64,000 nucleotides of DNA from Hallella colorans (GTDB lineage Bacteria > Bacteroidota > Bacteroidia > Bacteroidales > Bacteroidaceae): contig NZ_QENY01000017.1 of assembly GCF_003096815.1 (NCBI RefSeq), positions 1 through 64,000 on the forward strand. Reading direction: 5' to 3'. Positions 9,553-56,255 of this stretch are shown one piece after another (positions within the stretch are counted from its first letter, which is position 1; each line of letters opens with the position of its first letter). The notes under the pieces were generated by a model. It searched no databases, was not told the origin of the DNA, and worked only from the letters and a program-made list of their open reading frames with translations. A program made the position numbers and the translations under genes.

Positions 9553-10470
9553 TCACAAACCTTTGGCATATTCAAAAATTTTGTCAACGATTTTTTCCAC
9601 ATCATCAGATGTTATACTGTCAGTTTTCTGCTTTATTTTATCCTTTAACAGCTTTTGCACTTGTTTCACGATGGCTCTTCCAGATTTACCTTTAATCGTG
9701 GCGGTATCGGCATTTGAGACATCTGGCCAATCCTCATTCCCCTGATTGCCGTCGCTCCGCTTGTCTATCAAATCATCGTCAACAGCCCCACGTCCCACCT
9801 CCTTATTCGAGGCGTTGATGGCCTGAACGATCACCTCCTCGTCCGCGGCAAGCACCTTGCCAAACATGCCATATGATGTGGTGGTATTACCCTTGTCAGT
9901 TTGCACAGAAGTTGCTGAAAAAATGATGTAATTGTGATATTCGAGCGCCTCATTCAGGATTTCATCGACGAGTGGGCCGGCAAACAATTGGCCAAACATA
10001 TTGAAGCCTCGCGCAAACAAGCCATGACTGTCGTCAGCAACAGTCTTGGTCAACGCACGGGTAATGTTTTCTTTTAACACTTGGCGATGGGCCTCTTTGG
10101 ACGGATTGGTTAATACCATTGCCAGAAACAAGCCGAACAAAACCAATAGTACCCACGACAAAACGCCACGTCTTTTTGGAGGCAAAGAAGCGTTTGACAC
10201 CGTATCGTCGCGATGGCAACACTGTTGTCGCGCGGAAAATTCCGCTATTTGGCCGTTGACCTCATGTGGTGGTGGTGGAGGTGTCGCGCCTGTGACACAC
10301 GACTCATTGTTATAGAACAGCGCTTTCAACTCTTCAATCTGCCACGCTGGCTCCCATTGGGACATCCCCTCAGTCCAAACCAATGTTTCTGAGGATATGT
10401 TATGCTGACGAAGCTCATCCAATGTGAACGGCCCTTGTTGGACACCATTTGTGATGATAAAATAATTCAT
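9553..10470 (-). CDS. GYF_2-domain membrane protein with extracytoplasmic domain
   Basis: The 305-residue protein begins with a GYF_2 (DUF4339) domain (residues 3-52): GPFTLDEL, TLVWTEGMSQWEPA. A linker holds a run of five prolines (64-68) that could be a ligand for its own or another GYF domain. One membrane helix follows (103-121) and then a non-cytoplasmic domain (about 122-235) ending in a charged, Lys-rich tail. The part just after the membrane helix (NPSKEAHRQVL ... IIFSATSV ... YGMFGKVLAA) resembles the matching region of the zinc-ribbon protein at 23338-23955. Function is unknown. Confidence 0.72.
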   Translation of the reverse strand: MNYFIITNGVQQGPFTLDELRQHNISSETLVWTEGMSQWEPAWQIEELKALFYNNESCVTGATPPPPPHEVNGQIAEFSARQQCCHRDDTVSNASLPPKRRGVLSWVLLVLFGLFLAMVLTNPSKEAHRQVLKENITRALTKTVADDSHGLFARGFNMFGQLFAGPLVDEILNEALEYHNYIIFSATSVQTDKGNTTTSYGMFGKVLAADEEVIVQAINASNKEVGRGAVDDDLIDKRSDGNQGNEDWPDVSNADTATIKGKSGRAIVKQVQKLLKDKIKQKTDSITSDDVEKIVDKIFEYAKGL

Positions 10471-20777: not shown

Positions 20778-21240
20778 GCAAGAAAAAGCGAGCCTCGTTT
20801 TATTGTGTCATGAAAAAATCACAAAAACAAGTGGGTCGACACATGTCCTATTAGAAGCGGAATGATGAGACGACGCGCCATTTTTTGCGTCTGCGCCAAT
20901 CATCACAGCATGCGCGCTTTGCGATTACAGTCTATTGGCACCGCGTTTGAGCCGTAAAGGGACGTCGTTTCGGACTTGATCGTCCAACGGATAGGCACTA
21001 AACGCATGGCGAATAAGCACTAATGGCACTATTAATTCTTTCTTTTATTCACCCTTTTATATTGAAAAGCTCATATCTATCTATAAAACAACGATTTACT
21101 AAACATTGACGAAACTCGCATATTTGGGAGCTTCCACCAAACCAGTTGTAAATACGCGAAAATTAAAGGCATGTTTGTCAGCTATTTTCAACAGTTTATT
21201 TTCGCGTCATGAAAACATGCTTCACGATGTGGTGCACATC
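20778..21240 (+). repeat. Dispersed non-coding repeat, copy A
   Basis: These 463 bases align without gaps to 30301-30763 (constant offset 9523) with about 35 mismatches by eye. No conserved reading frame spans the copies. The 3' part contains an 8-bp inverted pair GCATGTTT (21169-21176) and AAACATGC (21213-21220), also present in copy B. It lies in a gene-free stretch between the GH3 gene and the zinc-ribbon cluster. Confidence 0.9.
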
Positions 21241-21885
21241 ACCTGACTTTATCATTTTACTGTGCTGTCATATAGCACACATTGAAAATCAGTTAGTTAT
21301 ATCATTTTGTAGGGTGACTTAGGGTGACGCAAATAGAAAAGGCGTACCTTTTGTACAATGCGCTAATTCCAATAAGAAGTGTGCTGCTACTCAAAAAGTT
21401 TACACGGAAACGCCAAAGAAAAAAGCGTTCGGGTATTCTATTGGGAAATTAAAATCCTATATTTGCCTACACCTTCTTTTTAGCCTAAACGCGTGAAATA
21501 ATGTTGGATGCTTACATTTTTCTTGCGTATTTGCTGGTTTAAGGATTCTGTGTTACGATATAGTCTTGCTATCTCAGTACACTGCTGACTGAGATAATAC
21601 ACATAATCCGTATCTCTTCCATCATGTCTTGCAACACTTTCGACAAGTCCGCAACTTACTCTTTGACAAGTATAAAGGTGCGAAAATATATCTAATATGC
21701 AAGAATATATACCGCTTTTTTTAAAAGGTTATTGAGGGATGTTTTGCGGGAAATAAAAGATAGAGGTAAAGTGGTTTTTACTATCGCTGAATAGTTACAA
21801 ATGAGAAATATTCTGTTAATTGATATCAAATATTTGACCCTAATTGGCATTATATCGAGATATGTCTTTTTGGCTCATCCGTCCC
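21241..21885. other. Gene-free stretch downstream of the zinc-ribbon cluster
   Basis: No supported frame is present. An 8-bp stem (TATCTCAG 21570-21577 with CTGAGATA 21589-21596) and a short doubled AGGGTGAC near 21313-21331 are the only structures seen. Confidence 0.45.
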
Positions 21886-23313
21886 TTACTCAGCCATGTC
21901 CGGGTCATCAATTAGGTATTGACGTAAACTGGCTTTAAGCGATGGCATTCCCTCTGTTCCGATGTCGTCCATTTTCCAGTCAGAATTTTCCTGTCTCATG
22001 GTGACATGAGCTATTCGAACAGGATGAGATTTAAATGGCGGATCAATAATTTTTACTCGAACATGTGCGACGTTATCACCATTAGAGTCTTGACTTAGAT
22101 CTACGTTTTCCACTTCCGCTCGTATATCGTAGGAATAGTCTTGAGCTTGCATGAAAAGATCAGAATCGATGAAGCCAGACTCGTGTTGATGGTAGATCTT
22201 ATCGTACTCCATTACTTTGTTCCAAAGCTCCTTCAGAATATCGGTACTATAAGCGTTGATGGTTACATCTTGGTCAAGAGAATTGAAAGCAGTCTTATAC
22301 ATTTCCAATACTGCTCGCTTAACATCATCTTTCATATCAGATGCACCCATGTCATATGTGTCATCAGAAACGGCAACGGAATCTACTAATGCAAGGGAAT
22401 CTGATGCTTCTGTATTATTTGGGGCTGTAGTCATGTTATCCAATGGCGTTGTTCCGTTGCTGGAAATCATAACTCCTATTCTTAAAGCACTAGAGAAAAT
22501 TAATATTGCCATGACTATCCAAAAAATGAGATCTGTATCGGATCGTACCACGAAATTTCGGTCTTCTTCATTCGTTATTTCTTCTTTCTTACAATATAGG
22601 ACGAGAAGCCATATCGCTCCAATCACCGGAATGACACTTATCAAGATCCACCACCCACTCTTGTTGATAGAGTGCAATCTGCGAACCTGCAAAGCGATTG
22701 ACGGGATAGCAAGTACTAATGAAACCATACTTGTGATGACGAAGAACCAATCACCTAAGATTATATCTACTGCAACAGCCCCTATCAATACGAGCATGTA
22801 GTATAAGTACGCTAACCAGAAACGCTCACGACCTATGGTAGAGCTGAAATCAAGATACTTCCCTATGAACTGCTTAACAAAGTAGTTGTTGAAATATCCT
22901 TCCTTGATGTCATCATTAAGATCTGTATCATCATCGGTATTGTTCGTATCATCAGGTGAAAGAAGAGTGCCGGTGACAGGTGTCGGCTGTGAAGTGGATG
23001 TCGTGACATTTCTCTCTGTACCCTCATGTTCGTCCATGACAATTGGGGTAGACTTGGTGACAGGCGATGGTTGTCCTTGCTGTTCTTCCCTCTCGTGAGG
23101 GATGCTCGTGCCATTCTGCAAGGGTTCGTTGCAATGTGGACAGACCGTTGTATTCTCCGGAATAAGTTCAGAACAAGCCGGACAGGGTATCATCTTTACC
23201 GGTTCTTCCTTTTCCGCTTTCTCCGTAAGCCATTCTCCGCAATATCTACATTTCTTGGCGACGGCTTTTATTTCTTCACCACAATAGGGACATGTCTTAG
23301 TCTTATCATTCAT
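21886..23313 (-). CDS. Double zinc-ribbon DUF805 membrane protein
   Basis: This 475-residue protein starts with two C4 zinc ribbons (Cys8/11/22/25 in CPYCGEEI...CRYCGEW and Cys44/47/58/61), followed by a Ser/Thr/Asp-rich linker to about residue 155. A DUF805-like membrane region (about 158-245, [20 protein letters not shown] ... [12 protein letters not shown]) comes next, then a further membrane helix (262-283). A C-terminal non-cytoplasmic domain (about 325-470, [30 protein letters not shown]) resembles the DUF3828 type. It is the last gene of the zinc-ribbon run, 24 nt after its neighbour. Function is unknown. Confidence 0.7.
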
Positions 23314-23337
23314 TTTGAAAGTATTTATTTAGAATTG

Positions 23338-23955
23338 TTAATTATTTAATAGTTTGTCATAGAACTCCTTTCCTCCATCCTTTGTGAGCATGAAGTCATC
23401 CCAATCTACACTTGCGAAAGTCATTCCTAATACGCCAAAACCGACATCAATACCATCGGGATGTTGATTATTCACTATAGAGACCGTATTCCAGAACCAA
23501 TGCTTCTCTATGTTAATGGTATTATATTGATTGAAGGTTTTATCTATACCTTCATTAATCGTTTCTGTATCTAATGCCATGGCGCCTAATGTTCCTAACC
23601 CTGGAATGAGTAAATCGCCCCAGGAGGCAACCTCGTCTTGTACAGCTTCATGAACTCCGTCTAAAACTTTGTTATAGAGTCTAACCTCATTAGGTATTGT
23701 AAAATGTGCAATGATTAAAAAAACAACTATCCAGAATGCTTTTGCAAAGAAACTGGTAATCATATTCTTCACCTCAGGATCCATTTCATCAGAATCTGCA
23801 TCTTCATACACCGGCTCAGGTGTTACTGGTTCTGTGTTAGGGTTTGGCTGAGATATGACAACATCCTTAATCAGCCATTCTCCACAATGCTTGCATTTTT
23901 TAGCTGTCGCAAGAATTTCCTCTCCGCAATAGGGACATCTTTTGGTACTGTTCAT
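23338..23955 (-). CDS. Zinc-ribbon membrane protein
   Basis: The 205-residue protein has one C4 zinc ribbon (Cys7/10/21/24), an acidic linker, one membrane helix (about 70-88) and a ~110-residue non-cytoplasmic domain. That domain (NEVRLYNKVLDG ... FWNTVSIV ... VGFGVLGMTFAS) resembles the C-terminal region of the GYF-domain protein at 9553-10470 in length, order and hydrophobic pattern. The ATG overlaps the upstream gene's stop by 4 nt, indicating translational coupling. Function is unknown. Confidence 0.7.
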   Translation of the reverse strand: MNSTKRCPYCGEEILATAKKCKHCGEWLIKDVVISQPNPNTEPVTPEPVYEDADSDEMDPEVKNMITSFFAKAFWIVVFLIIAHFTIPNEVRLYNKVLDGVHEAVQDEVASWGDLLIPGLGTLGAMALDTETINEGIDKTFNQYNTINIEKHWFWNTVSIVNNQHPDGIDVGFGVLGMTFASVDWDDFMLTKDGGKEFYDKLLNN

Positions 23956-24515
23956 AATTCGTCAAATTTACTGTGGAACGCCGGTAAATGGAATAACAAG
24001 GCAACGACGCCGGCAACAAGTCCACCTGTCATGTCATAAACTGCATAGCCAATACAAAACCATGTGGCGATAGCGCCCAGACAATAAACGATTCTAAGTA
24101 TCTGAAAACTCATCAGCATCGTAAATATAAAGTAAGCTATCAGAGCTTGCCACCATTTCCAATCATAGACGTACCATAACAAACCGCCTAACAGCAAGGA
24201 TTCGGCCGACAACAAACAGCCCGTTATGGAAGAATAGCCTTCAACAACTTCTTCTAAAGTCTCATTGCCTTCGTCATCATTATCTGCAGGAACAGAAGCA
24301 GGCTGAGGGGCGAGGGCGCCAGTCTTTATGTCGTAGGCTTTCCTGTCTTTGTAACTAAACCAAGTTCCGCAATGCTTGCATTTTTTCGCATCAATGTTAA
24401 CCCATTCGTCGCAGGCAGGGCACTTCTTCTCAAGCCAGTTTCCACAATGCTTGCATTTTTTAGCTGTTGCCAGAATTTCAGAGCCACAGTATGGACAAAT
24501 TTTTGTTTCTTCCAT
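23952..24515 (-). CDS. Double zinc-ribbon multi-pass membrane protein
   Basis: Two zinc ribbons stand at the N-terminus of this 187-residue protein (Cys7/10/21/24 and Cys32/35/46/49). The second reads CPACDEWVNIDAKKCKHCG. After a linker come three or four hydrophobic helices (about 95-182). There is no extracytoplasmic domain. The gene overlaps the next by 4 nt. The ribbons are close relatives of those in the other members of the cluster, suggesting duplication. Function is unknown. Confidence 0.68.
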   Translation of the reverse strand: MEETKICPYCGSEILATAKKCKHCGNWLEKKCPACDEWVNIDAKKCKHCGTWFSYKDRKAYDIKTGALAPQPASVPADNDDEGNETLEEVVEGYSSITGCLLSAESLLLGGLLWYVYDWKWWQALIAYFIFTMLMSFQILRIVYCLGAIATWFCIGYAVYDMTGGLVAGVVALLFHLPAFHSKFDEL

Positions 24516-24611
24516 ATTCTATATAATTCGTATAAGCCTCAGACTCCCGCCCTACATCGTTTTATTGTAGGCAGGAAGTACTGAAGCGTGATTATGGATT
24601 TTGAAGACAGC

Positions 24612-25091
24612 TTACTCGTCTCCCAAGACATTCAGTTCGTAGGTAGGATAGATACCTTCACCATCTATCGTCACATTTTTGCCTTCCACCTTAATATTAC
24701 ATTCTCTTGGCTCCGAATAACCTTGCATAGCAGCATTGACAATTTCCTCATACTTTGCGTCTTGATTGGTTACAGAGGCGCCGTCGGTATCGAAAGTAAA
24801 GATTATCTTACCATCTGATATTTTCCACTTAAATGGAATATCAATCTCTTGATCCCCATTACTATAGACGGCAGACTCCATACCGGTTCCATCTTCATCC
24901 AGCACACAGTGCCAGCCTTCAAAATCCCCTGTGGAAGTATAGATACCAGCTATCCCAGCCGACTGTGCTTCCGTTTCGGCAGAGGATTGGACAGTGTCAA
25001 CCCCTTTGGCAGAATTAGTCTTCTTAGAATTACATGAGACAATTGTTAGCGATGCAATAATTGCAATTGACAGAATACTTAGTTTTTTCAT
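24612..25091 (-). CDS. Lipoprotein of the zinc-ribbon cluster
   Basis: The 159-residue product has a lipoprotein signal (MKKLSILSIAIIASLTIVSC, Cys20) and a small beta-rich domain with GIYTSTGDFEGWHCVLDEDG and WKISDGKIIFTF, a lipocalin-like strand pattern. The frame opens at 25127, but the ATG at 25091 begins the signal peptide. It follows the neighbouring zinc-ribbon gene by 22 nt. Probably anchored to a membrane facing the periplasm or surface; ligand unknown. Confidence 0.7.
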   Translation of the reverse strand: MKKLSILSIAIIASLTIVSCNSKKTNSAKGVDTVQSSAETEAQSAGIAGIYTSTGDFEGWHCVLDEDGTGMESAVYSNGDQEIDIPFKWKISDGKIIFTFDTDGASVTNQDAKYEEIVNAAMQGYSEPRECNIKVEGKNVTIDGEGIYPTYELNVLGDE

Positions 25092-25113
25092 AATTAAATT
25101 ATTTTGATTAGGA

Positions 25114-25878
25114 TTAATATGTTTCATATTTAATAGCGTCCCGCATATATTTATATTGCAACCAGCTAAAACCGAATGAAATTAATGCGAAAAAGAACTT
25201 ATATACTTCCTCGTCTTCAACCATAAAAGCAACTATAACTAAAGATGTCACACCGAACACAATGGATGCCAGCAACACTATGCCAATTTTCTTGATACTG
25301 CCTTCATACTTAGTAATCAGCACGATACTAAAGGCTACTTCTATCAGGCTAAAGATTAGTATCAAGACATCCACAACTTCAACATCTTCGATAATTCCAA
25401 ACAAGGATAGCGCTATGGACAGAATAACAAAAACAGTCTGTGGGCGACCGATTATCTCAAGACGCTTCATGACCCCGTACCAAAGTCCTACGGCGCCAAC
25501 CGCTTCTATAATTGACGCTATCGTCGCATTGATACCGATTGATTGGATTAAGGAAAGCACAAAGAAAACGAATCTAAACTTCCCCCCTCCATGTAAATCT
25601 CTTGAGATGTAAGGACAAACCGCTAAAGAATAGAGCAATGCGCCAGTTATGGCTATGAAGAATGATATTTGCGCGATTCCCTTAATATCTTCACTTAAAA
25701 CCCTTGGCTCAGTGTCCTCAGTGTCATTAGGTTTAGGCGTTGGCCCAGGCCTCTGCGCCGATACTGTTGGGCTAACGCCTGGCTTAGGTATAAGCCATTG
25801 CTTGCAATGCTTGCACTTTTTCGCCGATTCTATGATATATTCACCGCAAAAAGGGCATTGTTTTAAATTTTCGACCAT
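25114..25878 (-). CDS. Zinc-ribbon multi-pass membrane protein
   Basis: This 254-residue protein opens with a C4 zinc ribbon (Cys8/11/22/25 in CPFCGEYIIESAKKCKHC), then a Pro-rich linker (30-50) and about six or seven hydrophobic helices to the C-terminus. The frame extends to 25950; the ATG at 25878 places the ribbon at the N-terminus as in the other members. It belongs to the same run but has a different membrane architecture. No family assignment can be made for the membrane part. Confidence 0.65.
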   Translation of the reverse strand: MVENLKQCPFCGEYIIESAKKCKHCKQWLIPKPGVSPTVSAQRPGPTPKPNDTEDTEPRVLSEDIKGIAQISFFIAITGALLYSLAVCPYISRDLHGGGKFRFVFFVLSLIQSIGINATIASIIEAVGAVGLWYGVMKRLEIIGRPQTVFVILSIALSLFGIIEDVEVVDVLILIFSLIEVAFSIVLITKYEGSIKKIGIVLLASIVFGVTSLVIVAFMVEDEEVYKFFFALISFGFSWLQYKYMRDAIKYETY

Positions 25879-26010
25879 ACGTTTCCAGTATATATTTTTA
25901 AGACTCACTTGAACTATTATGAGAGCCCCATCAAGAAAGTAACATTGCATAGTTCTATCAAGACAGAACTCTTTAGAATAAGAATTAAATAATAGAGCCT
26001 TTAATTGCTA

Positions 26011-26622
26011 TTAGTTTTGTTTATAATAATGGTATTCTTCCTGTTCACTGTCTTTAAAAGACATACTATTACCATTTATCTCCAGATCAGAATATTGATA
26101 GGATTCATCTTTCTTGCAGTGATAATAATTGAACATGTCAGAGTAACAGCTTTTCTGAATTAGCTTTTCCAACTCATTTTTTTCTGCCACCAAATCTAAA
26201 AGATCACTACTGAGCACTTCATAAGGAGAGTAATGAACTTTTAGGCTCTTTTCCTCGACTGCGACCCGAAGCGTGGAGACATCATAGCTGACATATAGGT
26301 CGCCTGCTATAATTTCCCATTTCCCCTCAACATAAGAATCTAAAACATAATCGTAGGTGTCGTCTCCATATTCGTAATTTTTAGATATATATCTTTTAGT
26401 TTCAACCAAGGTTCCGGATGTGTCATCATTATTTCCCTTTTTGAATACCAAAGTCTCATTTACACTATCAACACTCTGGTCATTGGAGGTTAAATTATAT
26501 TGTGTGTTCCAAGTTCCTTGAATGGCCTCTGACAGTCTATCGTCGTCACATGAAGAGAATAGAGCGGACAACAAGACAAGAATGAAAAAACCACAGTGAT
26601 TTGGGATAGATACTCTATTCAT
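26011..26622 (-). CDS. Lipoprotein of unknown function
   Basis: A 203-residue lipoprotein with lipobox LFSSC near residue 25, followed by CDDDRLSEAIQGTWNTQYNL, a pattern seen in lipocalin-like stress lipoproteins of Bacteroidetes. The rest is rich in Tyr, Ser and Asp with alternating beta-strand pattern. It lies 11 nt downstream of the possible PH-like gene and 132 nt before the next zinc-ribbon gene. Confidence 0.65.
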   Translation of the reverse strand: MNRVSIPNHCGFFILVLLSALFSSCDDDRLSEAIQGTWNTQYNLTSNDQSVDSVNETLVFKKGNNDDTSGTLVETKRYISKNYEYGDDTYDYVLDSYVEGKWEIIAGDLYVSYDVSTLRVAVEEKSLKVHYSPYEVLSSDLLDLVAEKNELEKLIQKSCYSDMFNYYHCKKDESYQYSDLEINGNSMSFKDSEQEEYHYYKQN

Positions 26623-26633
26623 AGGTAAAATGA

Positions 26634-27125
26634 TTATTGTCCTTCAAGTGCAGATTGAAATATTGCCCCCAACTCTTCGATAGCTGTTTCATCAAAAAAT
26701 ATAGAGCCACCCATACGCAGCAAACCCACCACTCGGTCATTGACAATGAGCTGATGCCCCAAATAGGCCGATCCGAAGGCATGATCATGATGGCCAATGG
26801 CCAGTGAGGACACTTCTGATAATGGGAGAGAACCTTTATCGGATAAGGCAACCAAGCCACTCAAGAAGGAATCCTTCACACATTTATAGTACAAAGTCTT
26901 ATCCGTAATCATTAATCCAGACCAGCCATACCCTTTAAATGACCCAGGAATCTTATCATTTACGATAAGGAGAGGTTGCTCGTTTTTACAACCATCAGCA
27001 TAACGGTTGCAATGTTTTTCAATTAATTCTGACGTTATGGCGTCACCAACATAAACGTTCTTGCTAATTTTTTTACCAGACGATAAATACTTCTGAATGG
27101 CATTTTTCAAACTCAGTTCATTCAT
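26634..27125 (-). CDS. Uncharacterised soluble protein, possibly PH-like
   Basis: The 163-residue product has no signal peptide or membrane helix. The middle and C-terminal parts (SGLMITDKTLYYKCV near 70-85, SLPLSEVSSLAIG near 100, and a final helix EELGAIFQSALEG) follow the strand-strand-helix order of bacterial PH-like domains, where a TDKRLY motif and a final helix are usual. This match is from pattern only. It is the first gene of the zinc-ribbon run. Confidence 0.55.
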   Translation of the reverse strand: MNELSLKNAIQKYLSSGKKISKNVYVGDAITSELIEKHCNRYADGCKNEQPLLIVNDKIPGSFKGYGWSGLMITDKTLYYKCVKDSFLSGLVALSDKGSLPLSEVSSLAIGHHDHAFGSAYLGHQLIVNDRVVGLLRMGGSIFFDETAIEELGAIFQSALEGQ

Positions 27126-27182
27126 AGCTTTAATTTGATGATAATTATTAATAAAGAGTTAAATAGTATGCTATCATGATTT

Positions 27183-27416
27183 TCAGCTATGCCCGAATAA
27201 TAAATGAGGTGTGGACCCTAATCCACACTTTCTCAAAGTAAGGCTCTGGTAAAACCCAATAACAAAGAAAACATGAAAGAGGAATCCACACCCTATGCAG
27301 GTGTGAACTCGCCCAGACATATCTTTGTTCAATGTTATTAGTTTGAATTTACCAGATTCTACTTTTTGAACATCGATATCCGAACGGGAACACAAGCACT
27401 TCTTGTGACTATTCAT
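27183..27416 (-). CDS. Possible small zinc-ribbon protein
   Basis: A 77-codon frame starts MNSHKKCLCSRSDIDVQKVE and contains CLC and CIGCG pairs with a FKLITLNKDMSG stretch, recalling small rubredoxin-like ribbon proteins, and then a hydrophobic segment. A TATATTTG box (27420-27427) sits only 3 nt upstream, too close to drive this ATG. It may be a remnant. Two hairpins (GTGTGGA/TCCACAC and CACACC/GGTGTG) lie within its 3' half. Confidence 0.3.
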   Translation of the reverse strand: MNSHKKCLCSRSDIDVQKVESGKFKLITLNKDMSGRVHTCIGCGFLFHVFFVIGFYQSLTLRKCGLGSTPHLLFGHS

Positions 27417-27602
27417 TTGCAAATATATATAATATTTGTATAACAAACAATAATTTTCAAAGAAAAGAGTGTGGATATTCCTCATTTCGTTTATTCAAAA
27501 CATCTTTGCAAAGATATGATAGAAAATCTTCCACAAACAATAATTTATGGTTCAAGTTGGTTCAAATAATAAGTTTAAGAATGGTAAACTATTTATTTTA
27601 TG

Positions 27603-27610
27603 TATTTTTG
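27603..27610 (+). promoter_or_regulatory. Promoter -7 box of the divergent regulator
   Basis: TATTTTTG lies 8 nt before the ATG at 27619, so the transcript would be leaderless or nearly so. No clear -33 TTTG is present. Confidence 0.4.
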
Positions 27611-27618
27611 TAAAGAAT

Positions 27619-28188
27619 ATGGATAAACAACAATTAATATCAACTCTGCTCGCTGAAGTTGAGCGTAAAATAGGTAGGACACTTAGGACACCAACAGATT
27701 TCCAATACCTTTCATTACAAATAAGTAAAGAGGGTAAGGGCTATGAATCTTTAAGTATATCAACAATAAAGAGATTGTACAAATATATCAACTCAAGCCA
27801 TGAACCAAGCCAGCAGACTTTAACTATCTTAGCGCACTTTATTGGTTACAAAGACTGGGATACATTTAGAAAATTCCAATCAACACTTGCAAAACAAACA
27901 TCAGGCTTTCTATCAAATATAGATGATGTCTTGACCAAAACAAAGATAGGTGACACATTGTATATACAGTGGAATCCCAATCGCAAAATCAAAGTACAGA
28001 ATCAAGGATCGCGTAGAGTAATTGTTATTGCCTCAGAGAATAGCCAACTTATAGTAGGCGATAGTTTTAAGTTATCAGAAATAAAAAACGACAAACCACT
28101 ATTAGCAACTGACTTTATCAGAGATGGCATGTCAATGCCAGATTACATCATGGGCCGCAATGATGGTGTAAACGTTTACTTAGAATAA
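27619..28188 (+). CDS. Putative DNA-binding regulator divergent from the zinc-ribbon cluster
   Basis: The 189-residue protein has an N-terminal helical region (1-80) with SISTIKRLYKYI and TLTILAHFIGYKDWDTF. This layout is found at the start of many Bacteroidetes proteins with a helix-turn-helix-like element. The C-terminal part (100-189) is beta-rich and soluble, with YIQWNPNRKI and SQLIVGDSFKL. The frame opens at 27547, but the ATG at 27619 matches the near-adjacent promoter. It points away from the zinc-ribbon genes, so regulation of that cluster is an inference. Confidence 0.5.
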   Translation: MDKQQLISTLLAEVERKIGRTLRTPTDFQYLSLQISKEGKGYESLSISTIKRLYKYINSSHEPSQQTLTILAHFIGYKDWDTFRKFQSTLAKQTSGFLSNIDDVLTKTKIGDTLYIQWNPNRKIKVQNQGSRRVIVIASENSQLIVGDSFKLSEIKNDKPLLATDFIRDGMSMPDYIMGRNDGVNVYLE

Positions 28189-28368
28189 GTTACTCAGAAT
28201 ATTTCTGGTTTAATTTGATTCAAAATTCTACCAGACTCCTTAGTAATGTTACCCATTAGAATCCAATATTGGCGAACCCTCAATCAACAACATGATGCGC
28301 CGCTCACACCCGTGGAAGCATCCTTGAGGCTGACTTGGTTAGGCACATTCCATGACCATTGCCGTGCG

Positions 28369-30114
28369 CTATTTCACGAAGACCGTACCTTGCCATTGCA
28401 TGTCGACAAAGTCTTCGCCATAGGATAGGTACAGGTAAGTGATGACAAGCTGTGTCTGTTTGCCGGTGGCAGTCATGCAGAACTTACCTTTGCCATTTAC
28501 CTTTCGTTCAATCTCCGTCAAACTCATTTGGTAATGGTCTGTCAGTGTTTTCCCATTCAGTTGATATTTCATGGTCACAAGTAGTTTGTCGCCCTCAACT
28601 TTAACGTCTTTCCCCGGAGGATATTGATCGATGTTCTGAAAATAACGGTAACCCGGCGGAATGGGCAACAGGATTTTTTCTTCGTGTTCGTCGCTGATGA
28701 GCCTGTTTTCGGGTATGGATGTCGAAGAGCTACCTGCCATTGGCTGCCCGTACATCTTTTCTACTTGATAGTCGGTGAGGAGATACTCGGGGTTGATGAT
28801 GTCCTCAATGGCTTGTCTGCCGTATCTGCTGTTCAGGTAGTTCAGCTTACCCGCAAGGCTTTTCGCTTGTTGGTATCCTACCTGTTTCAATAATGTTGTA
28901 TACGTTTTACAGCTTATCGGAAACTTGGACATGTTGTGCTTGGCCAACAATTCGCGTACCTGTTTTTGCAAACGGTTGTGGGTATAACTTGATACGTTTA
29001 CCGGAAACACAGACACCAGCAACAGGATGGCGACAAAACTCCATGCCACCCACATCACCTTGCGCGACCGGCAGGCAATGAGACCTATGCAGACAGCGTA
29101 GCACCAAAGGTTGAACAACAGCAGGTACAGACGCTGTATCGTCACGCCATAGTCGGAGAAACGGCGGCCAATGCCTACCGACATCAGCACCAGTAACGGC
29201 AGTACGATGATGGGAAGATAGCGAACCGCCATACGGTCTACCGGCTTTACTTGGTCTTGCTGGTGAATAGGATAGAGCAAGAACAGAATGATGACGGTGA
29301 GTAACATGAGCACCGAAACCAATGTAGAAACCCATCCGTTGGGCAATTCCCAGATAACGAGTATCTTTCCGGCATAGAGATAAAGCGTAATGACGTAAGC
29401 TAAGTGTAGCGGAATGAGCAGGTGGTGGATGATGCCGTTGCCAAATTTGTGTTGCAGCCAGTTGTATTGATTGTATTTCTGTTCGCCTTTCGGCAACTGG
29501 AACATGAATAACAACGGAGCCACCAGCGTGAAACACACGATAGCCGTGTCGACATGGAGGGTTTCCTCTATGTCCATGTTAAACAGATACTTAAACGACT
29601 GTATCAGTAACAAGATACCCAAGAAGAGAACAAGGGACGTGAGAGCGGCGATGATGCCGCTTCCCATGAGCTTGATGAGGAAATTAATGGCTGGACGGTC
29701 GCTCGCTTGTTGCGCGAAAGGCAGTGTGAACCAGCCCACGAGCATCGCGCCTACGCATGTGCCGGCGGCGATGCTTTGCCCGATGGACAGTTCGTATTCA
29801 GTGGCCCAATAGATACACAGAGCCAGCCAAATGGCATGTATGGCACCTTGCCATCCCCATTTTTTGAGCCGCTGACACATGTTCTCCGTCCATAGGTGGA
29901 GTGTCAAAGACAAAACGGTGGCCGTGAGTGGATAGAACATGAGGAAGAATTCGAAGCCTTTCATCTCTCCGCCATTGCTCAAATCGTGATTGAGGTACAT
30001 CAGCGATAGGCATGAGGCAATGGTGAAAAACAGGGTTAGCGGAAATCTCCGCACAATGCTTTGCAAACCTTCTTTCCAGTGTTGGAATACGTCTTTAGAA
30101 ATGAAATGTGCCAT
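28369..30114 (-). CDS. DUF4153-family multi-pass membrane protein
   Basis: This 581-residue inner-membrane protein has about eleven hydrophobic helices in the first 390 residues and a C-terminal soluble domain (about 395-581). The segments FPLTLFFTIASCLSLMYL, KYNQYNWLQHKFGNGIIHHL and LLIPLHLAYVITLYLYAGKI are typical of DUF4153 proteins. The soluble part is rich in Tyr and ends VDMQWQGTVFVK. It has its own consensus promoter (30143-30174). Function is unknown. Confidence 0.8.
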   Translation of the reverse strand: MAHFISKDVFQHWKEGLQSIVRRFPLTLFFTIASCLSLMYLNHDLSNGGEMKGFEFFLMFYPLTATVLSLTLHLWTENMCQRLKKWGWQGAIHAIWLALCIYWATEYELSIGQSIAAGTCVGAMLVGWFTLPFAQQASDRPAINFLIKLMGSGIIAALTSLVLFLGILLLIQSFKYLFNMDIEETLHVDTAIVCFTLVAPLLFMFQLPKGEQKYNQYNWLQHKFGNGIIHHLLIPLHLAYVITLYLYAGKILVIWELPNGWVSTLVSVLMLLTVIILFLLYPIHQQDQVKPVDRMAVRYLPIIVLPLLVLMSVGIGRRFSDYGVTIQRLYLLLFNLWCYAVCIGLIACRSRKVMWVAWSFVAILLLVSVFPVNVSSYTHNRLQKQVRELLAKHNMSKFPISCKTYTTLLKQVGYQQAKSLAGKLNYLNSRYGRQAIEDIINPEYLLTDYQVEKMYGQPMAGSSSTSIPENRLISDEHEEKILLPIPPGYRYFQNIDQYPPGKDVKVEGDKLLVTMKYQLNGKTLTDHYQMSLTEIERKVNGKGKFCMTATGKQTQLVITYLYLSYGEDFVDMQWQGTVFVK

Positions 30115-54845: not shown

Positions 54846-56255
54846 CTACTTGCCACCCAAAGCGTTTTGCCACTGTGATAAGCAATCGGGATCTTGGAAA
54901 AAAGCTATTCGTCCTTTTTCCGAGTAGGTATCGGCAATGTCGAGAATGCTGTTAAAATTTGGAGCGCTGGCATCAAGGATTTTCAACAAAGCCTTGCGAT
55001 TGCTCTCTCGCATGAGTTTGCGTTCACGTTTCACTACTGTTACACCAAAATTCAATCGCTCTTTGTCTGTCTTTAGTTGATGATAGACGGTTCTGTCCCA
55101 CTCAAGGCTTTGCTTCATGATTTCAAATGCACGCTGCTTGGAATCCTCCATAAATTGCTTATATTGCTCATTGGAGAGTTGTTGCCTGCTATTGGGTGTT
55201 TGCAACGATTCCGCGCGCGACATGCGTGACCGCTCACGATTGCTTGTAAGGTCGTCTCGAAAAACAGCTCTACCTTTACCATTTGCCTTCGGCATATTCG
55301 TGTGAGTTGTCGAGACATTGTCTGTAGCCACCATCACCGGACGTTTGACGCTGCCCGCCTGTTCGACTTGTATAGCGGTTGGCGTTATAGCTGACGGCGT
55401 ATTTGCAACGTGTTGTAGATAGATGAGCAAAACGCCAAAGATGACCGCAGCCAATCCCGCTCCCACCAATCCATATACCACGAATTGTCTCGAGCTTGTT
55501 TTTTCAGTCCAATGGATTTCCGAAAGACGGTCGTAACGTTTTGTACGGTCATACTGTATGCAGTTGTTGATGATAGGCAGGTATTTCTTTTGATATCCGA
55601 AACACGTGGTTAATTCGTCCAACAACTTTCCAAAAGAATAGACATCCGCTCGACCATCCAATCCTTCGATACCGTTGGCCTGTTCTGGAGCAATGTAGTT
55701 GACTGTTCCTGCCGGACTCTTAAGGATGGTATAATCGTCAGCGTCCGCAAGCCCAAAGTCTATCAACTTTGCGTTCCTGCCATTGGTAGTTACCATGATG
55801 TTCTCAGGCTTCAGGTCTCTGTGCACAATTTGATTGTCGTGCAGGTAGTCCAAAGCCTCGCCTATCTGTCTCATCATTCTTACCAATGATTTCTCATCCC
55901 ATCTCTCCGATGCCATAACTTGCCTAAGGTTCTTTCCCTTAACGTATTCTTGGACTATGCAAAGGCCGATGCCATCCACCTCCTCTATCCCTATAGTTTG
56001 TGCTATATGTGGGTGCGAAAGTTGGTAGGCTATTTCAAACTCTTTACGAAGCATAGACACGATATGAGCGTCTTTTTGATATGCAGACTTCAGGCCTTTG
56101 AGAAGAAACCATTTTCCAAGGCGTTCCGCCCTATATAAAACAAACAACTTGCTGCTGTTATCGGCCAAAGGCTTTATATTTGTAAATGACGATGACAAAA
56201 ACTCTCTATTATCGTATATGAAACCGGAATTAGGGTAAACATCATTCATCTTCAA
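54846..56255 (-). CDS. Transmembrane serine/threonine protein kinase
   Basis: The 469-residue protein has a cytoplasmic kinase domain (about 30-250): ATP-anchoring Lys53 in WFLLKGLK, HRDLKPEN (145-152), DFG (166-168) and APE (189-191), so the catalytic residues are present. The usual glycine-rich loop is not evident: the matching stretch is ADNSSKLFVLYRAERLGK. A single membrane helix (258-282) precedes a basic, Ser/Arg-rich external part (about 290-469). It follows kup by 44 nt on the same strand, so a shared transcript is likely; a role in potassium control is inference. Confidence 0.85.
   Translation of the reverse strand: MKMNDVYPNSGFIYDNREFLSSSFTNIKPLADNSSKLFVLYRAERLGKWFLLKGLKSAYQKDAHIVSMLRKEFEIAYQLSHPHIAQTIGIEEVDGIGLCIVQEYVKGKNLRQVMASERWDEKSLVRMMRQIGEALDYLHDNQIVHRDLKPENIMVTTNGRNAKLIDFGLADADDYTILKSPAGTVNYIAPEQANGIEGLDGRADVYSFGKLLDELTTCFGYQKKYLPIINNCIQYDRTKRYDRLSEIHWTEKTSSRQFVVYGLVGAGLAAVIFGVLLIYLQHVANTPSAITPTAIQVEQAGSVKRPVMVATDNVSTTHTNMPKANGKGRAVFRDDLTSNRERSRMSRAESLQTPNSRQQLSNEQYKQFMEDSKQRAFEIMKQSLEWDRTVYHQLKTDKERLNFGVTVVKRERKLMRESNRKALLKILDASAPNFNSILDIADTYSEKGRIAFFQDPDCLSQWQNALGGK

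Follow-up and report, generated by a model that had tools for sequence, protein, structure and literature searches.

In layout, the closest described counterpart of the locus analyzed here is YdjG of Bacillus subtilis. According to PMC11237479, this protein combines two N-terminal zinc ribbons with a membrane segment and an extracytoplasmic NTF2-like domain, and it belongs to a membrane-stress operon (ydj, of the PspA system). TcaA-type membrane proteins of Firmicutes likewise carry an N-terminal C4 ribbon before a membrane helix, and in PRK14559 and the 4-Cys prefix kinases a double zinc ribbon is joined to Ser/Thr phosphatases or kinases. In a 64,000-nucleotide (nt) stretch of Hallella colorans DNA (NZ_QENY01000017.1, positions 1 to 64,000; hereafter the window) we studied a cluster of seven minus-strand genes, g1 to g7, together with a divergent regulator gene (REG) and a kinase gene (STK) (Table 1). 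Four of the cluster proteins are ribbon-bearing membrane proteins, and g1 resembles YdjG in layout. We put at about even odds (a probability near 0.5) that the cluster serves as the output arm or the sensor arm within an accessory module for envelope signalling in Bacteroidales, composed of the kinase, a helix-turn-helix (HTH)-type regulator, and the ribbon-tagged membrane proteins.

Each known system matches this locus in part. Compared with the ydj operon, Pfam finds no PspA, SPFH, or TPM-phosphatase domain in the seven cluster proteins, and the locus has in their place four paralogues with ribbons, along with lipoproteins, a kinase family, and a dedicated regulator. The TcaA model matches at the ribbon end only far under its cut-off (11–21 bits vs. 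550); the match extends to residue 87 in g2, and the other tails are unmatched. The g3 ribbons match PRK14559 (E 1.3e-7, far below the cut-off of that model), but ribbons and kinase are separate proteins here. As in two-component systems, one membrane sensor kinase goes with one likely DNA-binding regulator, but the kinase is of Hanks type, and Pfam matched no histidine kinase or receiver domain in the cluster proteins or in STK. A structured RNA lies between promoter and first gene, as in Rfam cis-regulatory leaders, but matches no Rfam family. Literature searches returned no paper linking a zinc ribbon with DUF805 in Bacteroidetes, none joining any two of DUF4359, GYF_2, DUF805, DUF3828, and DUF4153, and none on TcaA with zinc ribbon, NTF2, and membrane; the accessible part of PMC3581485 holds nothing on this module.

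The cluster is a real unit, since its core order g3-g2-g1 recurs across genera. We searched 119 genomes (with g5), 249 genomes of the genus, 151 of the family, and a scan of named genomes from which 79 loci were kept (genomes are designated G and loci L), reading gene order with hidden Markov models of the tails after removing the ribbons and calling a g3 tail strong at E below 1e-30. In the eight loci with a strong g3 tail (the window and L161–L167, in Prevotella, Paraprevotella, and Phocaeicola), g2 follows g3 in 8/8 and g1 comes next in 7/8, the exception being L165, where g1 stands first. This order is maintained at roughly 30–45% protein identity between genera. Five of L161–L167 are the same genomes as G238, G160, G004, G052, and G274; L162 (Prevotella sp. 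S7-1-8) is the same run as in G160, its seven genes 89–98% identical to those of the window, while L163 is from Candidatus Paraprevotella stercoravium and L167 from Candidatus Phocaeicola gallistercoris. The original prediction, which read these genes as a module, thus holds for an ordered cluster with a divergent regulator; it is not supported for g4–g7, which are not widely kept, and it missed both the kinase and the leader RNA described below.

Profile searches delimit this core. In the 249 genus genomes, the g3 profile found full-length relatives in six (G000, G004, G160, G238, G052, G274), tail matches in G224 and G216, and some match in 144, many restricted to the ribbon part; the g5 search found ribbon clusters in further members of the genus, among them L017 (lipoproteins-g3-g2-g1-g1) and L020 (g1-ribbon-g3-g2). 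Among the loci read, the complete seven-gene set occurs only in the window and G160/L162, and by this distribution g4–g7 lie outside the widely kept core. Relatives of g4 occur in L162 (G160), L161 (G238), and L215; those of g6 are present in L162 and L167, adjoin DUF805-ribbon genes in L171, L187, L194, L203, and L209, and in L241 stand beside a kinase. Relatives of g7 were found in G160 and L215, with a remnant in G238 (0/118 other relatives at E ≤ 0.001).

The second line of evidence is the pairing of REG with STK. By its Pfam Pkinase match (E 2.3e-34) and its catalytic residues K51, D145, N150, and D164, invariant across six aligned kinases, STK is a Hanks-type Ser/Thr kinase. In L020 the last gene of the ribbon run encodes a Ser/Thr kinase with 39% identity to STK, and a REG relative comes next. 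We ran REG and kinase profiles against the same 249 genomes and took the best 150 places of each. An STK place lies within 10 kb of 94/106 best-scoring REG places and of 121/150 REG places among these best matches (within 1.5 kb for 98/150), compared with a chance expectation of ~0.009 kinase within 10 kb per REG, based on a rough kinase number per genome. Among 64 REG/STK pairs that were read, 49 are on one strand and many almost touch (in L068 the two overlap by 17 nt, using the starts of the open reading frame (ORF) caller), and a crude hydropathy scan finds a hydrophobic helix in 62/64 of the paired kinases. Because nearly all of the best REG places have STK close by, REG belongs, by profile match, to a kinase-paired family.

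One group of these kinases also tracks the ribbon cluster. REG and STK flank the core in L163 (REG / g3 g2 g1 / STK) and, with g6 added, in L167; both follow it in L166 (g3 g2 g1 STK REG) and L165 (g1 ribbon g3 g2 STK REG); and L195 reads REG / g2 g3 ribbon / STK. They stand next to ribbon genes also in L183, L206, L233, and L071 (the genomes of L165, L166, and L195 are those of L020, L068, and L070), and L241 has, at a contig start, a kinase, the g6 relative, and a partial ribbon protein, with no REG. In a kinase tree of 77 rows, 12 kinases were labelled ribbon-linked: those of these ten independent loci, that of the window, although it lies 27 kb off, and that of G160 (L066), whose cluster is on a different contig. 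One 15-row group takes in ten of these 12, with support 92/97, just short of the tool's mark; the labels change 6 times on the tree against a shuffled mean of 11.4 (0/500 shuffles as low). The group holds 8/10 when restricted to loci with ribbons beside the kinase, and 12/14 when all cluster-bearing genomes are counted, adding L080 (G004) and L240 (G224); the L071 and L233 kinases lie outside it. A kinase of this group is present in 7/8 g3-tail genomes and in 4/241 others, the tree holding only part of the kinases of the 249 genomes.

Table 1. Positions in the window of the cluster genes, their control region, REG, and STK
Feature	Positions	Strand	Description
g1	21886..23313	-	two zinc ribbons, DUF805 helix bundle, extracytoplasmic DUF3828-like end
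g2	23338..23955	-	one zinc ribbon, one membrane helix, extracytoplasmic domain, possibly DUF4359-like
g3	23952..24515	-	two zinc ribbons, two to three membrane helices
g4	24612..25091	-	lipoprotein; start 25091 yields signal peptide, 25127 is the first ATG
g5	25114..25878	-	one zinc ribbon, about five membrane helices; start chosen from the relative in G160
g6	26011..26622	-	lipoprotein; relatives adjoin DUF805-ribbon genes or kinase
g7	26634..27125	-	soluble protein, no family match
Structured leader RNA	27236..27362	-	127-nt core within the untranslated region ahead of g7; covariance model R1, 142.6 bits (training sequence)
Proximal promoter box pair	27420..27447	-	TTTG-N16-TAnnTTTG, Bacteroides-type, toward g7
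Distal promoter box pair	27509..27537	-	TTTG-N17-TAnnTTTG, Bacteroides-type, toward g7
Direct repeat	27550..27565	-	TTGAAC-N4-TTGAAC, exact match; candidate operator
REG	27619..28188	+	divergent regulator, predicted XRE-like HTH and small beta domain
STK	54846..56249	-	Ser/Thr kinase anchored in the membrane, of the family paired with REG; 27 kb from REG

A structured leader RNA precedes the cluster. The fold of 27126–27420 has a free energy of -86.3 kcal/mol compared with -60.9 ± 4.7 for shuffled sequences (z -5.4), and a 100-residue ORF at 27183–27485 was dropped as a gene because it overlies the leader. The region is 93% identical ahead of g7 in G160 and 73% identical, with a near-identical core, to a G160 stretch that separates REG from a second operon and lies 5 kb from the kinase; G160 thus has the same leader twice, on different contigs, once ahead of the ribbon cluster and once beside REG. 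Searching at the DNA level gave ten copies with E below 1e-15, of which five stand upstream of ribbon clusters at distances from 110 to about 480 nt (the window, G160:C51, G238:C57, G004:C11, and G238:C62, where a g6 relative and two ribbon genes follow), one lies beside REG (G160), and four precede other operons. A covariance model built from these ten copies matches 60/249 genus genomes and 48/151 family genomes, in 17/30 genera, at E ≤ 0.001, where the weakest matches may be chance. The leaders are mostly ahead of operons other than the ribbon cluster.

The leader covaries. In 44 distinct sequences, all at E ≤ 1e-5, 27/31 pairs are altered on both sides, 93.3% of cells pair (74.2% when shuffled), and the covariation score is 0.512 compared with 0.190 for shuffled alignments and at most 0.096 for slid structures, in an alignment fitted to the covariance model, which favours that score. 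The swaps are plain in the letters themselves (AATCTGG/CCAGA, AACCTAGG/CCTAGG, AATACCGCC/GGCGG); the ten close copies alone show slight covariation (3/32 pairs). A promoter box lies at most 120 nt upstream in 33/43 copies, compared with 1 downstream and 6 on the opposite strand, and a same-strand ORF starts at most 250 nt downstream in 33/42, compared with 5 the other way. No Rfam family reached its gathering score at 21000–29000, the best cis-regulatory match being sub-threshold (purD, 16 bits vs. 41); the single Rfam match at 20 other leader loci is a tRNA; and a distant-mode search of a phage collection found no leader. Thousands of candidate RNAs are reported from human microbiomes in PMC8040213, and the leader may be an unnamed entry among them. 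It appears to be a regulatory element in its own right, and what it senses would explain the control of many accessory operons.

The module that we propose would work as follows. What the analysis establishes is the genes, the order of the core, the REG–STK pairing as a trait of the family, the kinase group that accompanies ribbon clusters, and the covarying leader; the topology and each biochemical step are inferred. STK, whose catalytic domain would face the cytoplasm and whose single membrane helix would carry a tail in the periplasm, would read the state of the envelope, and REG, its presumed partner and perhaps, like the ribbons, a substrate for phosphorylation, would control the promoters lying between REG and the cluster. 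The inner-membrane cluster proteins would share a docking tag in their cytoplasmic zinc ribbons, to which the kinase, in the simplest case, or some other common partner would bind. The membrane and periplasmic parts, in which these proteins differ, might do the sensing or stabilising together with the lipoproteins. The leader within the transcript could add a second control layer. Through the pairing, a likely partner can be named for each such kinase and the pathway can be put to the test, and the ribbon cluster offers a concrete output to measure.

Several observations weigh against this proposal. The STK of the window lies 27 kb from REG, past a ribosomal operon, and the two would presumably have to act together across that distance; the HTH assignment of REG depends on middling fold scores (Z 4.4–6.0). 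In G238, which has g1–g5, no kinase reaches E ≤ 1e-30 and REG is matched only weakly (3.8e-11), and the G160 cluster is not beside REG. The weak-g3-tail loci L168, L191, L195, L197, L222, and L223 are without the g3-g2 order, L195 alone among them having g2, ahead of g3. Among 19 stretches with at least two ribbon proteins, some of which end at contig ends, REG is present in 6, STK in 4, and 13 are without REG. Most REG/STK pairs are without ribbon genes: ribbon-pattern proteins occur in 8/69 REG/STK loci, four of these eight chosen for their ribbons and one (L107) tRNA synthetase-like by eye. A general ribbon enrichment at REG/STK loci (8/69 compared with 0/18 background, P = 0.20) is not claimed outside the kinase group, because of this P value and because four of the eight loci were fetched for their ribbons.

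Among the alternatives, one is that the cluster is an accessory anti-phage or anti-toxin cassette, whose ribbon proteins guard the inner membrane and are induced by phage or competitor toxin, the kinase and regulator only setting the threshold. The site-changing nature of the cluster (below) fits this, as do genes that follow leaders. We took 51 genes, the first or second ORF after 34 leaders, excluding the copies of the window, G160:C51, and G238:C57; 6/51 are PvuRts1I-like restriction enzymes (PADLOC restriction model), 3/51 RteC, and 3/51 FtsK-like, compared with 0/51 random background genes with a PADLOC match at E ≤ 1e-20. At L260:8838-17000, one of the ten close leader loci, the leader is followed by a weakly bPH-like protein, a PD-(D/E)XK nuclease, and LeoBC/LeoA-like dynamin GTPases, one of which has a weak TerB match. 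However, the six restriction enzymes are one family, the background genes were unmatched for first-in-operon position, and the leader also precedes a fimbrillin and secreted proteins. Among the cluster proteins themselves no nuclease, toxin, or pore-former was recognised, and for the ten proteins of 21886–30114 PADLOC gave no defence-system match, the best (KwaA, 15 bits, E 0.003) being within noise. We regard a defence cassette as unlikely.

Just as improbable, in our judgment, is envelope maintenance of the Bacillus Ydj or phage-shock kind, in which ribbon membrane proteins would recruit a cytoplasmic partner to damaged membrane and no kinase would be needed. The likeness of g1 to YdjG and the presence, by eye, of SPFH-like and TerB-like neighbours at some REG/STK loci (e.g., L081) favour such a role, but the seven proteins lack the PspA, SPFH, and TPM-phosphatase domains, and REG/STK pairing is foreign to the Ydj system as described in the accessible part of PMC11237479. 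A loose pile-up of ribbon genes by duplication beside unrelated accessory genes, with the kinase hitch-hiking, would account for the composition that varies from locus to locus, for the 13/19 ribbon stretches without REG, and for the ribbon clusters with other tails that are common in Bacteroidales and Gastranaerophilales, but is very doubtful given the g3-g2-g1 order maintained across genera and a kinase group that tracks the cluster.

The signalling module might also be one instance of something broader, namely a Bacteroidales class of one-to-one systems of Hanks-type membrane kinase and HTH-beta regulator, a counterpart of two-component systems, in which ribbon proteins would dock on one branch and a new class of leader RNA, shared with restriction, dynamin-like defence, and mobile-element genes, would join envelope signalling and genome defence. 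We hold this extension to be tentative and on the whole rather improbable.

Comparison of flanking sites shows that the cluster is accessory, to judge from alignments with relatives. The flanking DUF4153 gene is 90–91% identical in G238 and G046, whose DNA match spans 30299 to 28270 of the window and ends just past the end of REG; the cluster is absent there, leaving two empty flanking sites. Both genomes carry g1 copies elsewhere, in a neighbourhood common to both by eye, and G046 keeps g1 alone (L024:6039-8532), with 85% identity and next to a gene that looks by eye like a transposase of the IS30 type. The surroundings of the G160 cluster are different again, and the DUF4153 gene was not found in that genome. 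The empty sites and changed positions bear out the accessory module of the original prediction, though not its argument from AT-richness: guanine-cytosine content is 0.35–0.41 in the cluster compared with 0.47–0.57 in the preceding 12 kb, but is also low (0.39–0.46) in the ribosomal region at 36–54 kb. Composition of the whole cluster, which taken alone says little, was therefore rejected as proof of acquisition.

REG is likely to bind DNA. Its start is backed by alignment with nine relatives, in agreement with the divergent putative regulator originally placed at 27619. The structure model (predicted local distance difference test, pLDDT, 83) has helices up to residue 107 and then a small beta domain. 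With VIA-align the N-terminus resembles HTH regulators and repressors, under the tool's clear level; for the C-terminus (Z about 4 to 4.7) most of the matches are Sm-like barrels, alongside a few other folds. Foldseek gave no match at E ≤ 0.001, Pfam no HTH match, and the REG profile found nothing below E 0.05 among solved structures. Since the fold scores are middling, DNA binding is rated as likely, short of established. Upstream, the TTGAAC repeat is kept in both G160 copies, with one base altered in one, and promoter box pairs of the type in Table 1 number 12 in the 64 kb, compared with 3.2 expected. For 20 distant leader copies, no REG was found among the same-strand genes within 3 kb downstream.

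The cluster proteins largely have the parts first ascribed to them. The seven minus-strand ORFs from 27125 to 21886 and the divergent one are where they were placed, and the four ribbon membrane proteins and two lipoproteins are confirmed, by Pfam above curated zinc-ribbon cut-offs for g1 and g3 and by eye for the lipoprotein signal peptides of g4 and g6. The ribbon of g2 is slightly under the cut-off (25.8 vs. 27) and that of g5 weak (14.7 vs. 27), with all four cysteines present. In g1, Pfam finds DUF805 (E 1.7e-19, 70.8 bits compared with a cut-off of 25.7), DZR (8.4e-8), and DUF3828 (2.2e-7), and g1 searched against its own genome gives 5 matches, every one inside the cluster. Profile searches yielded nothing for g7 and, for g4, a sub-threshold lipoprotein family (28.2 bits vs. 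50, NCBIfam); the PH-like nature suggested for g7 found no backing in Pfam, PADLOC, or PHROG, nor in any NCBIfam match near cut-off. As expected for a module without a name, NCBIfam (all matches far under cut-offs), PADLOC, and PHROGs name none of the cluster proteins; PHROG matches are mostly to ribbon-region families of unknown function, with g1 matching one "membrane protein" family (4e-14) and g3 weakly an HNH family (0.006). The g7/g6 gap is 11 nt and the g6/g5 gap, taking start 25878 as in the L065 relative, is 132 nt, in agreement with those reported, but a 4-nt overlap exists in one pair only (g3/g2) instead of several. A 14-nt g5/g4 overlap arises only with the g4 start at 25127, not 25091.

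As to the ribbon likeness from which duplication was proposed, the g2 ribbon of the window is nearer to its own g3 (0.82) than to other g2 ribbons (0.62–0.78). The same is not seen at four other tested loci. Ribbon nucleotide identity is 0.735 within and 0.682 between loci (0/500 shuffles), but general concerted evolution was rejected, as shared codon usage and relatedness could give the same signal. Structure prediction, a route named in the original prediction, gave for g2 a model (pLDDT 76) with no significant fold match (best E 0.31); its ribbon overlays NZF fingers over 25 residues (template modelling score to target 0.71–0.76, E 1.6–2.1), too short to mean much. A sequence search of solved structures with the g6 profile gave nothing under E 0.05.

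Other minor elements touch the ribbon tails and tags. A GYF_2 and DUF4359 membrane protein is encoded at 9553–10470 (minus strand) of the window, and the g2 tail is weakly like its DUF4359 part (hhalign probability 79, 12 g2 relatives aligned). The window g2 has no Pfam DUF4359 match at E ≤ 1, and for thirteen g2 relatives DUF4359 is absent from the best 25 of 28 families; a distant link is possible on the profile comparison. Ribbon and GYF_2 tags are found joined as well as separate, since proteins at L076:8180-8845 and L077:8053-8718 carry both within one membrane protein. A planctomycete chain (L236:6003-7382) fuses a kinase to zinc ribbons and two hydrophobic helices.

The leader is partly palindromic, since its model gives a score of 28.5 bits for the other strand too (27237–27365, plus). 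Related leaders at L303:4026-4138, L313:3210-3320, and L318:3448-3560 precede a short gene (RibD_C-like in L303) and, 674–722 nt on, a second gene that is probably RteC. The same 38.3-bit score recurs in many genomes, which suggests a mobile element.

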